From Thermoplasmatota archaeon (GTDB lineage: Archaea; Thermoplasmatota; Thermoplasmata; Thermoplasmatales; Thermoplasmataceae): a DNA stretch of 41,018 nucleotides. The notes below the pieces were generated by a model. The model did not search any database. It had not been told where the DNA came from and saw only the letters and a program-made list of their open reading frames with translations. The DNA is taken from positions 1 through 41,018 of the forward strand of contig JAMDBW010000047.1 in the NCBI GenBank assembly GCA_023487765.1, given 5' to 3'. A program made the position numbers and the translations under genes. Below are positions 31,738 through 40,156 of the stretch, in pieces (the stretch's first letter is position 1; every line of letters begins with the position of its first letter).

Positions 31738-32370
31738 TCATACCTTCACAAACATAATGTTTCCATTTGCAACATAGGGGCCTGAGGCGAGATTTATTGT
31801 TGCAAATAATACTTCGTTCCTGTTCAAAAGCTTTAACGCACTGCTGTTCAGAGATATTGAAATGTTGAAGGTGTGTGTGCCGCCAGTGAATGTAGTGTTC
31901 ATGTATATGGGTGAAAACAGGTTAATCGTGGCATTCTGGTAAGCGTACACAGTGGCGTTGGCAGAAGCATTCTGTTTTATCGACTGGTTAACGCTGTTGT
32001 TCAGGGTTATACCTGCTTTCTCGGTGCTATTGACAGACTGGTTGTACAGTTTATTGTACATTGTGTTGTAAGTCAGGTTAAAAAGAGTGCTGTTAAGCAG
32101 AGCCTGCGAAATTATTGATACGTTCAACGAACCGGAGGCTACCGTAGACGTCATTGACACAGTAAAATTATCGCCACTGCTTGAGTCGGAAACATTTACA
32201 ACGTACGTTTGGTTGTTTGCAACATAATTTCCGCCATTAGAGGAGGCGATATTCGAAATAGAAATTCCCGTGGTTGATGTGGGCAGTATGTGCGATGTGC
32301 CAAATGCACCACCGATAATCAGGACTGCCACAATTGCAAAGCCAATCCATCCCTTTGTATTGCTGTTCAT
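31738..32370 (-). CDS. Membrane-anchored surface protein rich in N-glycosylation sequons
   Basis: 210 residues. An N-terminal signal/anchor helix (about 9-26) is followed by a Ser/Thr/Asn-rich extracytoplasmic domain with at least 16 NxS/T sequons (for example NQT, NFT, NST, NAS, NAT, NTT). No cysteine, metal-ligand or enzymatic motif is visible. It starts 6 bp after the crotonase-like gene with GGGAG upstream, so it is the last gene of the Rieske/cytochrome b operon. A structural or accessory subunit of the quinol-oxidising complex facing the acidic exterior is possible, but this is inference from position only. Confidence 0.75.
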   Translation of the reverse strand: MNSNTKGWIGFAIVAVLIIGGAFGTSHILPTSTTGISISNIASSNGGNYVANNQTYVVNVSDSSSGDNFTVSMTSTVASGSLNVSIISQALLNSTLFNLTYNTMYNKLYNQSVNSTEKAGITLNNSVNQSIKQNASANATVYAYQNATINLFSPIYMNTTFTGGTHTFNISISLNSSALKLLNRNEVLFATINLASGPYVANGNIMFVKV

Positions 32371-32376
32371 TTTAAT

Positions 32377-33069
32377 TCATTCTCCCTTTCCTGCGGGCAC
32401 ATTTAATGCATTTTTATCATTTGAAATTCTCGATTTGGTGAGAAGCACCAGATGCTCCTCCGTGATAGCTTCCTTTATGAATCTGAGACGATTGCGCCTG
32501 GAGAGGGCAAGTCTCGGATTTTCGAGTCCGGAAATCCGATTTTTGGCATCCCCGAGCAAATTGTCGTATTTGAAGACGTAATCGCAATTCTCGCCTTCTG
32601 TCGACCCACTTAACTCTGCTGATCTAAAACGCAGGGACGACAGAGACCCTGCCATCATGCAATTGTATTCTCTGGAAAAACCGACTGTTACCCCGGGTGA
32701 TGATATTATGATATCCGTCAACAGTGCAAGTTCATAGCCGAGATCTGTTGCATCTCCGTTCAGGATTGCAAATGTCGGTTTGTCTATTGAGTACAACACA
32801 GATGCCAGTGCGCGTAGTGATTCAAGCAAAGCAGGCAGATCATCAGCTTCATCAGGTATCATGCCTTTGAAAAAAAGATCATTTTGTCCCGTGATCGCGA
32901 TACTGCCAATCGATGAATCAATGGAAGCGCCGCTAAGCGCCATCATCAACTCTTCGATAGTTTTTCTCCGTATCCTGCCTTCAGAAGATGACCTGATTAC
33001 AATCAAGCCAATGCTATCCTCGCGCCAGAACGTAACGTCATCGAATCCTTTAACCCTTATATCACTCAT
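32377..33069 (-). CDS. Divergent crotonase-fold protein in the Rieske/cytochrome b operon
   Basis: 230 residues. The middle part, KPTFAILNGDATDLGYELALLTDIIISS (about 104-131), is plainly the enoyl-CoA hydratase/isomerase core, including the second oxyanion-hole loop. The first loop is altered (DLFFKGMIPDE in place of a GADL-like motif) and the usual catalytic-glutamate segment reads GFSREYNCMMAG, with no glutamate in the expected PE-x-x-x-G context. The C-terminal helices are short. It may therefore be catalytically dead or act on another substrate. The start overlaps the cytochrome b stop by 8 nt and the next gene follows after 6 bp. Why a crotonase relative sits here is unknown. Confidence 0.7.
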   Translation of the reverse strand: MSDIRVKGFDDVTFWREDSIGLIVIRSSSEGRIRRKTIEELMMALSGASIDSSIGSIAITGQNDLFFKGMIPDEADDLPALLESLRALASVLYSIDKPTFAILNGDATDLGYELALLTDIIISSPGVTVGFSREYNCMMAGSLSSLRFRSAELSGSTEGENCDYVFKYDNLLGDAKNRISGLENPRLALSRRNRLRFIKEAITEEHLVLLTKSRISNDKNALNVPAGKGE

Positions 33070-34750
33070 TATAGAACGCAGCCCTGTATATTCTCATTAT
33101 AGTACCGGTGAAAATCATTACGAATCCCAGACCAATTCCGAATTCAGCATTTGGAACTGGCCCGACAGGATCCAATTGAGCAATAATGTATACTATGGCA
33201 ATTGTGCCTACTGCAAGCAGAGCTGAGAGCACCATTGCCGCATTCTTGCTGATTTGATACACATTAGCCCGCTGTTTCCCGTCATTGGCCTGCACATTGG
33301 ATATCCTGGCCGATTTCATGGTACCTACAGCTCCGAAGACCATTACTCCACCTGTGAACACTGTGGAAACCACATTGAGGCCATTGGCATACACCAGTGT
33401 CATTGTGAAATTCTGTCCAAATGAATAAGCAGCCAGCACCATCACAAACATGAAGATCAGGAAGGAACTGGTGATCTTTCCGGTCGTTATCTTGAAGCGT
33501 CCCTTCTTGTAAAGTCTTGACATGGCAAATACGCCGGATACCACTATCACAAAAGGTGGTACCAGAACAGCCAGTACTTCCGGTGTGGGTACAGGTATTC
33601 CGGGAGTAAGTGCGCCCCAGAGCGACAGTATTATCATGTATATGATGCCCAAAATTCCAAAAGAAGTAACTAACGGCCTGGACAGCGGATGGAGATCGTC
33701 ATTCGTATCAATGAAAGGGAGCATGAGGAAATAGACCAGCGGGACTATGCCGAATACCGCCGTTGCTGCAAGTGCAGATAGAGCCCCTGCAGCGCTGAAC
33801 AGGTTGAAATCAACAGCCTTGTAAACAAACAGCAGGAACCATGGAGGATATGCCGGAACATATGCAGCAAGCGGGCTGCTCGGAGAAACCTGCGGGAAGG
33901 GAGAAAAGAGTGCCGGGACGTTCGGCAGGAGGGCTATGACCGATGGAATAAGTATGAGAAGTCCAAAACTGTACATTGCTATTTGCGTCATGAAACTCAT
34001 ATTATATGGATACCACTTCTTGTGTTTTTCTTCCTCGGTATCAATTGCCGGTGCCTTGTGGTTTACATCCCTGTGCGCCGGCATTATTCCGTTTGCTTCG
34101 GCGAGCCAGAAGTGGGCGCCGAAAAGGCTTCCTATGCCAACTACCAGAATGATGTGCCATGCAAGCATGTGTGTGAAGAGACTGGTGGCAGTACCATTCC
34201 CGAAGAAAATAGACTCAAGGGCTGCCCCGAGAAATGGAGTGGATTGTGCAATGCCTCTTCCCACGTCAGTAGCATCTATGGAGAGAACATCTCCGGTCAT
34301 TGAGTATCCGAAGTACCCTACACCTATGGTTATGGCCAGAAGCAGGACCCCGATGATCCACTGTATTTGTCTTGGTTTCTTATACGAACCAAAGAAATAG
34401 TTCCTGAACATGTGCACGTAGACCAGAAATATCATCGCATATGCACCATAGAGGTGCGTCGTAAGCATTAGTGATCCGTACGGGACGGTGTTTATTATCC
34501 CGGCAGTTGTTCCATATGCGTCGCTGGGAACATAATATAAGAGAAGAAGCAGACCACTGATGATCTGATACACAAATGCCATGGATATGAGGGCTCCGGT
34601 CCAGTACCAGATTCCTCCTCTCTTCCTCATGTAGTCAGGTACTTTCTTGAGCGGTAATTCATCAATGTGGAGAGGATCATTTCCAAGCACGGAACTTACT
34701 GTCGGGATCTTTCCCAGTTTAGATTTTATATCTACCAATTTTATCACCAT
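33062..34750 (-). CDS. Cytochrome b of a bc1/b6f-type complex
   Basis: 562 residues, about twelve to thirteen helices. Two haem-ligand pairs with 13-residue spacing are visible: H99/H113 (TTHLYG, YVHMFRN) and H199/H213 (AWHII, GAHFW). The Qo-site motif that is PEWY in mitochondria reads PPWF here (302-305). It oxidises membrane quinol and passes electrons to the Rieske protein, pumping protons. The gene overlaps the Rieske stop as TGATG. The long C-terminal region exceeds the canonical eight-helix protein, as in other archaeal forms. No cytochrome c1 gene is present in the operon. Confidence 0.95.
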   Translation of the reverse strand: MVIKLVDIKSKLGKIPTVSSVLGNDPLHIDELPLKKVPDYMRKRGGIWYWTGALISMAFVYQIISGLLLLLYYVPSDAYGTTAGIINTVPYGSLMLTTHLYGAYAMIFLVYVHMFRNYFFGSYKKPRQIQWIIGVLLLAITIGVGYFGYSMTGDVLSIDATDVGRGIAQSTPFLGAALESIFFGNGTATSLFTHMLAWHIILVVGIGSLFGAHFWLAEANGIMPAHRDVNHKAPAIDTEEEKHKKWYPYNMSFMTQIAMYSFGLLILIPSVIALLPNVPALFSPFPQVSPSSPLAAYVPAYPPWFLLFVYKAVDFNLFSAAGALSALAATAVFGIVPLVYFLMLPFIDTNDDLHPLSRPLVTSFGILGIIYMIILSLWGALTPGIPVPTPEVLAVLVPPFVIVVSGVFAMSRLYKKGRFKITTGKITSSFLIFMFVMVLAAYSFGQNFTMTLVYANGLNVVSTVFTGGVMVFGAVGTMKSARISNVQANDGKQRANVYQISKNAAMVLSALLAVGTIAIVYIIAQLDPVGPVPNAEFGIGLGFVMIFTGTIMRIYRAAFYNE

Positions 34751-35487
34751 CAGGCTCCTGCCGTACTTATCTGTGATACCCTGGTGGTCGTTGTTCCCGA
34801 AGGAAACGGTGTTCCACCTTCAAGGTCGCTCGGTTTGCCATAAATTGCCGGGCCAATCATGCTCTTTACCCTGTATGTGTCTGTTGCAGGATCATAATCA
34901 AGAACAACATTTGGCAATGGCCTCTGTGTCGGTCCTGTAACAACTTTCGACCCATTTGCAGGATCGTAAGTGCTCCCATGACAGTTGCAATGTATGTAAC
35001 CAGTAGTACTCGTAAGACTTGGCCGGCCCGGTATTGGCGTTCCTCCCTTGTAATAGTGGATTATAGGGGGAACACACCCCAGATGCTGGCAAATTGCGCT
35101 AAATGACACAACGGATCCATACGGTCCTGCACCACCAGGAGATCTGAATACTCCTCCGGTAGCCGGTATCTGAACATTGTAAGGAGCTATTCTGACATCA
35201 TTATTATTCGTATTACCCAACCTTATCAGGAAGTTGGGATCATTATCCAGCGGGTAATAGAATATATATGTCTTCGAGCTGTTAACAACAATATCCGACG
35301 TGTGAATAGGCAGTCCCGTCACGTCGTCAACAAGAGTCAGTGTCGGGAAAGAGGTCAGGCCCGCAGCAGGGGAAATTATATTCTGTACAACACCTTTTAG
35401 GGCACCCGCAGCCGCAGCACCGGCGGAGACCACGATCATGGCTTTGAGGAAATTTCGCTTTCCTCGATCCAGGGGCTCTTCATTCAT
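34750..35487 (-). CDS. Rieske iron-sulfur protein
   Basis: 245 residues. A twin-basic KRNFLK motif followed by an Ala-rich helix (about 10-32) is a Tat-type signal anchor. The Rieske cluster boxes are CQHLGC (133-138) and CNCHGS (167-172): ligands C133, H135, C167, H170 with a C138-C169 disulfide. The 28-residue spacer between the boxes is longer than in simple Rieske proteins. It transfers electrons from quinol at cytochrome b to a periplasmic-side acceptor. First gene of the operon Rieske - cytochrome b - crotonase-like - surface protein, with a TATA-like box close upstream. Confidence 0.95.
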   Translation of the reverse strand: MNEEPLDRGKRNFLKAMIVVSAGAAAAGALKGVVQNIISPAAGLTSFPTLTLVDDVTGLPIHTSDIVVNSSKTYIFYYPLDNDPNFLIRLGNTNNNDVRIAPYNVQIPATGGVFRSPGGAGPYGSVVSFSAICQHLGCVPPIIHYYKGGTPIPGRPSLTSTTGYIHCNCHGSTYDPANGSKVVTGPTQRPLPNVVLDYDPATDTYRVKSMIGPAIYGKPSDLEGGTPFPSGTTTTRVSQISTAGA

Positions 35488-35679: not shown

Positions 35680-36159
35680 ATGGTTAACGAAGAGGAAAGT
35701 GAAACGGAGCAGGTAAAGACGGACGAGAAACCGAAACAGAACATCTCGGTTAAAGGGGTACGCAAGGATCTATACGACAAAGTGTTGAAATTTACAAGGG
35801 AATCCGGTAAGACTCTGGGTGACATAACAAATGAAGCTTACAGGGGCTTCCTGGCCACTGTAGAAGGCGCAAAACATCTGTCCAGAAACTTTGTCGAAGG
35901 AGCTATTAGAGGTGATATCAAGTATATAGAGAATATAAAAAATCTCACAATCGATAAAAGAGACTTTGATGAACTGAATGTCAAAGTGGCTTTCAAGAAT
36001 ATCGACACACTGACCTTCGCCGGAATCTCAACAGAGGACCTTACTAAATACGTTGAAACTATTTCCAATGTAAAAACTGTAGTAATACCGCGCGGAGTTA
36101 GTAAAGCCGCCCTGTTGCTGCGTTCAACATACGTGGATGAGATAATAACCAAAGAATAA
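35680..36159 (+). CDS. Protein with ribbon-helix-helix-like N-terminal domain
   Basis: 159 residues. After a charged, disordered N-terminus (1-22), the stretch SVKGVRKDLYDKVLKFTRESGKTLGDITNEAYRGFL (about 23-58) fits the strand-helix-helix layout of MetJ/Arc-type DNA-binding domains. The remaining 100 residues are a repeated alpha/beta pattern (KYIENIKNLTIDK, VSNVKTVVIPRG) of unknown family. It may be a transcription regulator or a small chromatin-like protein. It stands alone with its own near-consensus promoter, 67 bp before tRNA-Val. The RHH assignment is by eye and modest. Confidence 0.65.
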   Translation: MVNEEESETEQVKTDEKPKQNISVKGVRKDLYDKVLKFTRESGKTLGDITNEAYRGFLATVEGAKHLSRNFVEGAIRGDIKYIENIKNLTIDKRDFDELNVKVAFKNIDTLTFAGISTEDLTKYVETISNVKTVVIPRGVSKAALLLRSTYVDEIITKE

Positions 36160-39439: not shown

Positions 39440-40156
39440 TCAGTGTATCAGCATTATATTGGGCAGGACTCCGGCCTGCAACCCCCTGATGTACAGGTCA
39501 ACGAGGAAGAACAAGGTCAGACTGATCCACGCCAGTGTTTCATGGTGCAGGTTTATCTTTGTCTGGCTGGTGAACAGTTTCTGCCTGACATTATGTTTGC
39601 AACTGAAGCAGTCAGTGTTCCCGCCGATAAGGTGTCTCACCGCGTGGCACGACAGAGTGTAGAGCGTCACAAATATGGCATTTATTCCAAGGAGAACTAT
39701 GCCGAGTGTGATTCCTCCTTCGGTCACTATTGCGAGATATATGTCATAGAAAAAGAACGGAAGTATCAGAATGGCGAAATACATAAACCACCTGTGCAGA
39801 TTCTCAATTCTGAATAACCTTGTTTCTCCAGTGTATTCCCTTCCCTTTGTTTCCGCCCTGAAACCGATCTCACACGCTCTCGGGTGATTGAAGATATGCC
39901 TGTGGTAATCTTTCCTGTAAGCATAACATGTGAGCCTGAAAAGACCGATGAACGGGAGTATCAGAACCGTGGGGGAATAGAATGGATCGATGAGTCCGTT
40001 TACCTGGTCAGTCATTGGATAAATCATCATTAAGTATATTCCGAGAACTATCATGAGAATAAACGTTCCAACCCTCCAGTTGAGTTCCAGGAATTCTGAA
40101 GGTATGAGCCTGGTCATTGCTCTGTTTGTCTTCTGTTTCGGGTCATTTGATATCAT
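39440..40156 (-). CDS. sdhC: Succinate dehydrogenase membrane (cytochrome b-like) subunit
   Basis: 238 residues, about five helices. Histidines suitable as haem ligands are in NLHRW, SCHAVRH and NLHHETLAW. A CFSC motif is in the loop GNTDCFSCKHN. It starts right after sdhB (one base apart), in the usual position of the anchor subunit that passes electrons from the Fe-S protein to quinone. Sequence similarity to well-known SdhC proteins is not obvious, so this call relies on order, topology and histidines. It is longer than canonical SdhC (about 130 residues) and may replace both anchors. Confidence 0.75.
   Translation of the reverse strand: MISNDPKQKTNRAMTRLIPSEFLELNWRVGTFILMIVLGIYLMMIYPMTDQVNGLIDPFYSPTVLILPFIGLFRLTCYAYRKDYHRHIFNHPRACEIGFRAETKGREYTGETRLFRIENLHRWFMYFAILILPFFFYDIYLAIVTEGGITLGIVLLGINAIFVTLYTLSCHAVRHLIGGNTDCFSCKHNVRQKLFTSQTKINLHHETLAWISLTLFFLVDLYIRGLQAGVLPNIMLIH

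Follow-up and report, generated by a model that had tools for sequence, protein, structure and literature searches.

Why is the core gene pair of complex III accompanied, in many heat- and acid-loving archaea, by a gene for a protein with the shape of a fatty acid enzyme? The question is raised by a window of 41,018 nucleotides, contig C35 of a Thermoplasmata assembly (1.33 Mb, 70% complete), in which a Rieske protein, a cytochrome b, a crotonase-like protein and an anchored protein are encoded one after the other. A preliminary description of this DNA had regarded the four genes as linked by overlaps or 6-bp gaps and as lacking a cytochrome c1. Both statements hold: The coordinates (Table 1) agree with one minus-strand operon, in which the Rieske and cytochrome b genes overlap by one base (34750) and a gap of 6 bp separates the crotonase gene from the fourth gene, and the few CxxCH motifs of the window all occur outside the operon, at other sites and in short frames. 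Moreover, no CbsA-type heme protein was seen in the operon. The Rieske protein carries the cluster boxes CQHLGC and CNCHGS, scores above the PF00355 cut-off and has a Tat-like N-terminus of the KR variant (GKRNFLK), and the cytochrome b retains all four heme-ligand histidines (99, 113, 199 and 213) and has PPWF in place of PEWY. As judged from its sequence, the core pair fits an archaeal complex of the SoxL-SoxN type without cytochrome c1 in the operon. Two further frames lie nearby: A 159-aa ORF without a family (35680-36159) is located upstream of and divergent from the Rieske gene, with an intergenic promoter region common to both, and a respiratory-looking, multi-spanning membrane protein of 238 aa with several histidines is encoded at 39440-40156 on the minus strand.

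Table 1. Features of the operon in the window; the SoxL2 and SoxC/SoxN model matches are strong but under the equivalog cut-offs, and the ECH_1 match is weak.
Feature	Position	Strand	Match
Rieske [2Fe-2S] protein, SoxL2-like	34750..35487	minus	PF00355; TIGR03171 E 1e-57
Cytochrome b, SoxN/SoxC-like, 562 aa	33062..34750	minus	NF041076 SoxC E 3.5e-140
8-base overlap of cytochrome b stop and crotonase start, ATGAGTGA	33062..33069	minus	
Putative crotonase-like accessory protein, 230 aa	32377..33069	minus	ECH_1 PF00378 E 4e-8
Anchored glycoprotein-like protein, 210 aa	31738..32370	minus	matches no family

The product of the third gene has a crotonase fold according to AlphaFold (pLDDT 92) and, in agreement, Foldseek, by which hydratases and the chromodomain-Y crotonase domain are its nearest structures; neither a signal nor a membrane span was found in it. 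The active-site positions were read by alignment to the archaeal 3-hydroxypropionyl-CoA dehydratase 5zai. The earlier claim that no catalytic glutamate is obvious turned out to be half right: The position of the second glutamate is occupied by Arg133 and the Gly/Ala positions of the oxyanion hole are substituted, but Glu113, the equivalent of rat Glu144, is retained. The window protein thus has the fold of an enoyl-CoA hydratase, but neither the pair of catalytic glutamates nor the oxyanion hole. All 15 members of the Thermoproteota type have the second glutamate, and 14 of the 15 have the first. Among the Thermoplasmatales members the first is found in 51 of 57, the second position holds mixed residues, and the oxyanion Gly/Ala are mostly lost. 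The crotonase evolves two to four times faster than the cytochrome b. Its dN/dS of about 0.1 (0.08-0.12) indicates purifying selection, less strict than that on cytochrome b (0.02-0.03), so it is not decaying. All 71 full-length linked members share Trp15 (window numbering) in an N-terminal motif, as compared to none of 24 paralogues, and this tryptophan is also present in L176, as read by eye from the DNA. At the level of sequence, this signature sets the linked family apart from ordinary enoyl-CoA hydratases. As for monophyly, the best tree does not unite the linked members, and their grouping is also not rejected (AU p 0.11).

The three-gene order is not unique to this genome: Conserved within an archaeal family, it is also encountered in a second phylum. 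Rieske, cytochrome b and crotonase genes are contiguous in nearly all genomes of family f1 that have them (synteny reading). When named genomes were searched with cytochrome b alone and then scanned with the crotonase profile, the same triplet was found in Marsarchaeota G1 and G2, a Thaumarchaeota MAG, two unclassified archaea, E-plasma and Cuniculiplasma. It is also present in Thermoproteales. The 8-base overlap of cytochrome b and crotonase recurs in 54 of 72 scored gene pairs from outside the Thermoproteales, some genomes being counted via two collections. Among 398 Thermoproteota genomes, 13 carry the crotonase family, as set by a score gap (carriers at least 134 bits, next best at most 110). 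This cytochrome b is present in every one of the 13, and the crotonase adjoins it or sits on the same short contig in 12. In 61 Thermoplasmatales genomes, the presence of the crotonase and of the SoxN-type cytochrome b is concordant in 58 (both 37, neither 21, one alone 3; Fisher P about 4e-13, uncorrected for kinship), the cytochrome b matches of G012, G025 and G039, which are broken, short or at a contig edge, being scored as present. Where the order has been rearranged, proximity is often kept: The crotonase gene is divergent and about 1.5 kb from the Rieske-cytochrome b pair in Thermoplasma, 0.9-3.3 kb off in family f3 (with an intervening sulfocyanin-like gene in L058), and beside cytochrome b in convergent or reversed orientation in some Thermoproteales. 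In Thermoplasma and f3 it lies beside a second type of cytochrome b. Proximity that outlasts rearrangement and the position beside the second type point to more than plainly inherited order. In the cytochrome b tree, the crotonase-linked genes are spread over four separate clades. The linkage has its exceptions. Most second Rieske/cytochrome b copies lack a crotonase; in G042 and G212 the crotonase is located apart from cytochrome b; and G008 has a lone crotonase (L055:7440-8129), such a cytochrome b not having been found in this 76% complete assembly. The Sulfolobales have the same core complex and no crotonase, thus the crotonase is not essential to the chemistry. In G012 (L056:7293-10374) the entire operon is split into many frames, reflecting either a pseudogene or sequencing errors.

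The preliminary description had proposed the two unexplained proteins as extra subunits of a quinol-oxidising complex. For the crotonase, the gene order conserved within the family and in the other phylum gives good support to a cytoplasmic accessory protein; the case for the fourth protein, present in about 6 of 30 genera, is weaker. We regard a functional association of the crotonase with complex III as highly probable, and we favour, with less assurance, the idea that the crotonase is a cytoplasmic accessory protein dedicated to the archaeal SoxL-SoxN complex, most likely as a stable subunit. Membership in one operon is not proof of a common complex. In our proposal, an acyl-CoA-binding crotonase would be the ancestor, the Thermoproteota version would still have a potentially active site, and the Thermoplasmatales version would be a pseudoenzyme retained for its shape. 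Synthesis of the protein would be translationally coupled to that of cytochrome b, to whose cytoplasmic face it would most likely bind as a stable subunit, in the manner of the MPP-derived Core proteins; we infer the binding to cytochrome b, the stoichiometry and the side of the membrane. The sequon-rich fourth protein would be an optional partner on the outer face, gained in a few genera.

For this fourth protein, the suggestion of 16 or more sequons can be made precise: Exactly 16 N-x-S/T sites are found in 210 residues, as compared to 7.4 ± 2.2 in composition-preserving shuffles (P about 1.5e-4). The count is 12-17 in most relatives and 7 in a shorter copy (L066). The genome of the window also encodes an STT3-type oligosaccharyltransferase. 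In the model (overall pLDDT 85), an N-terminal membrane helix is joined to an Ig-like sandwich that carries a long helical hairpin; the pLDDT exceeds 90 in the ectodomain and is low in the anchor. Conservation is highest in the anchor (0.71 versus about 0.5). The protein occurs in 14 genomes, in 13 of them at the crotonase locus (G029 at a contig end); a weak match in G021 is located away from the crotonase, and all strong matches adjoin it. A search of PDB sequences returned one chance-level match only, and a fold search only generic Ig-like sandwiches with low TM-scores. Two candidate identities were rejected, that of CbsA, as the alignment has no invariant His or Met (ectodomain heme ligands), and that of a blue-copper protein, as there are no conserved ligands. 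The idea that the protein shields the outer face in acid is unsupported because relatives of the same family with the same operon do without it. The best reading is that of a lineage-specific partner on the outer side, added locally.

A second crotonase is found at complex I. In the genome of the window, a generic-looking paralogue (L292:1172-1909, G000:C69) is the last gene of the complex I operon, in the order NuoM-NuoN-ORF121-crotonase, and is oriented convergently to TatC-TatA; no Pfam family matches the 121-aa ORF. The paralogue adjoins TatC in 23 Thermoplasmatales genomes (loci L293-L322 were read), with NuoN in view in most, and it ends the complex I operon in up to 23. In the tree, the crotonases of complexes III and I are placed next to each other, and the support for this is moderate (82/84). 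Since all cases of complex I linkage come from one family, they amount to little more than one observation. In G039 (family f4, L063:4913-8739), Rieske, cytochrome b and crotonase genes are followed by convergent TatC-TatA. The score of this crotonase, a possible intermediate, falls between those of the complex III and the complex I type. It is tempting to speculate, though only tentatively, that archaea recruited crotonase folds as dedicated parts of both complex III and complex I, with a separate paralogue for each, and that the complex III version might still be catalytically competent in the Thermoproteota, which would make the complex bifunctional, and a pure scaffold in the Thermoplasmatales. 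If true, such a bifunctional complex would be comparable to the plant bc1/MPP complex.

A transient role in assembly is a close second to that of a stable subunit. The crotonase might be an assembly or maturation factor, attaching in the cytoplasm to newly made cytochrome b or, prior to Tat export, to the Rieske protein and then leaving, a possibility we take seriously but do not prefer. The protein is cytoplasmic and co-translated with cytochrome b, the Rieske protein carries a Tat-like signal, TatC/TatA adjoin the linked crotonase in G039 and are found close to the operon in Thermoplasma and L058, 23 genomes have the complex I-linked crotonase convergent with TatC, and ACAD9 provides a precedent (PMC6056720). 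However, in the cases seen the Tat genes are on the opposite strand and not co-transcribed, complex I has no evident Tat substrate, and the gene overlap favours one-to-one amounts. It is unlikely that the operon contains a working acyl-CoA enzyme that serves metabolism by passing electrons from acyl-CoA or quinone precursors to the quinone pool, with the Thermoplasmatales proteins merely diverged. The Thermoproteota members do retain the glutamates and the GxG turn, and the ECH_1 match covers most of the domain, but the second glutamate and the oxyanion-hole glycine/alanine are not conserved in the Thermoplasmatales, where the operon is nevertheless kept most tightly, and no genes for acyl-CoA dehydrogenase, ETF or Men proteins were seen beside the crotonase in the loci read. 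As the active site has been lost there, the Thermoplasmatales crotonase is probably a structural or assembly part of the respiratory complex rather than an enzyme. Finally, a neighbourhood retained by descent without any functional link is very improbable: although conservation is largely within family f1, this reading is largely refuted by the recurrence in another phylum, the proximity surviving inversions, the position near the second type of cytochrome b where the first is absent or apart, and the coupled presence and absence of the two genes.

The conserved third gene is a concrete candidate for an extra component of archaeal complex III, and would explain a gene until now annotated as enoyl-CoA hydratase. 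We found no crotonase in archaeal complex III in the open-access literature, subscription journals possibly holding a notice of it, and no complex of the SoxL-SoxN type among the solved structures. With the crotonase/enoyl-CoA hydratase superfamily (PF00378), the protein has fold and sequence in common; unlike these enzymes, the Thermoplasmatales protein has lost the active site, has Trp15 and shares an operon with complex III. The Rieske protein and cytochrome b of the window belong to the same families as those of the bc1-analogous SoxL2-SoxN-CbsAB-OdsN complex of the Sulfolobales and Thermoproteus tenax, and the absence of cytochrome c1 is common to both. SoxL-SoxN of T. tenax are described as a bicistronic operon with CbsAB divergent (PMC3189178). 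The arrangement in L251 matches this layout, but here a crotonase-like gene lies 15 bp downstream of SoxN, and the passages found of the T. tenax description make no mention of one. In the Sulfolobales, the ABM-like OdsN follows SoxN in place of the crotonase (L203:3032-3394, L225:7941-8279 and L231:7701-7994; 97-120 aa). OdsN was rejected as a counterpart since it is, as read from its sequence, an unrelated small ABM-like (dimeric alpha-beta barrel) protein. Human ACAD9, which is derived from an acyl-CoA dehydrogenase and serves the complex I assembly (MCIA) complex (PMC6056720), resembles the archaeal crotonase in that both are fatty acid oxidation folds tied to respiratory complexes; the fold and the target complex differ. 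The MPP-derived Core proteins of mitochondrial complex III have an enzyme fold and are located on the matrix side, catalytically active in plants but not in yeast (PMC8847149); they demonstrate that the retirement of an enzyme into a respiratory complex does happen. Core proteins and crotonase are unrelated in fold and enzyme class, and membership in the complex is shown for the former and proposed for the latter, but they are alike in the graded loss of catalysis between lineages. The archaeal crotonase may be a second instance, independent of the first, in which a respiratory complex took in a retired metabolic enzyme, and living lineages would still show both active-looking and inactive-looking stages.
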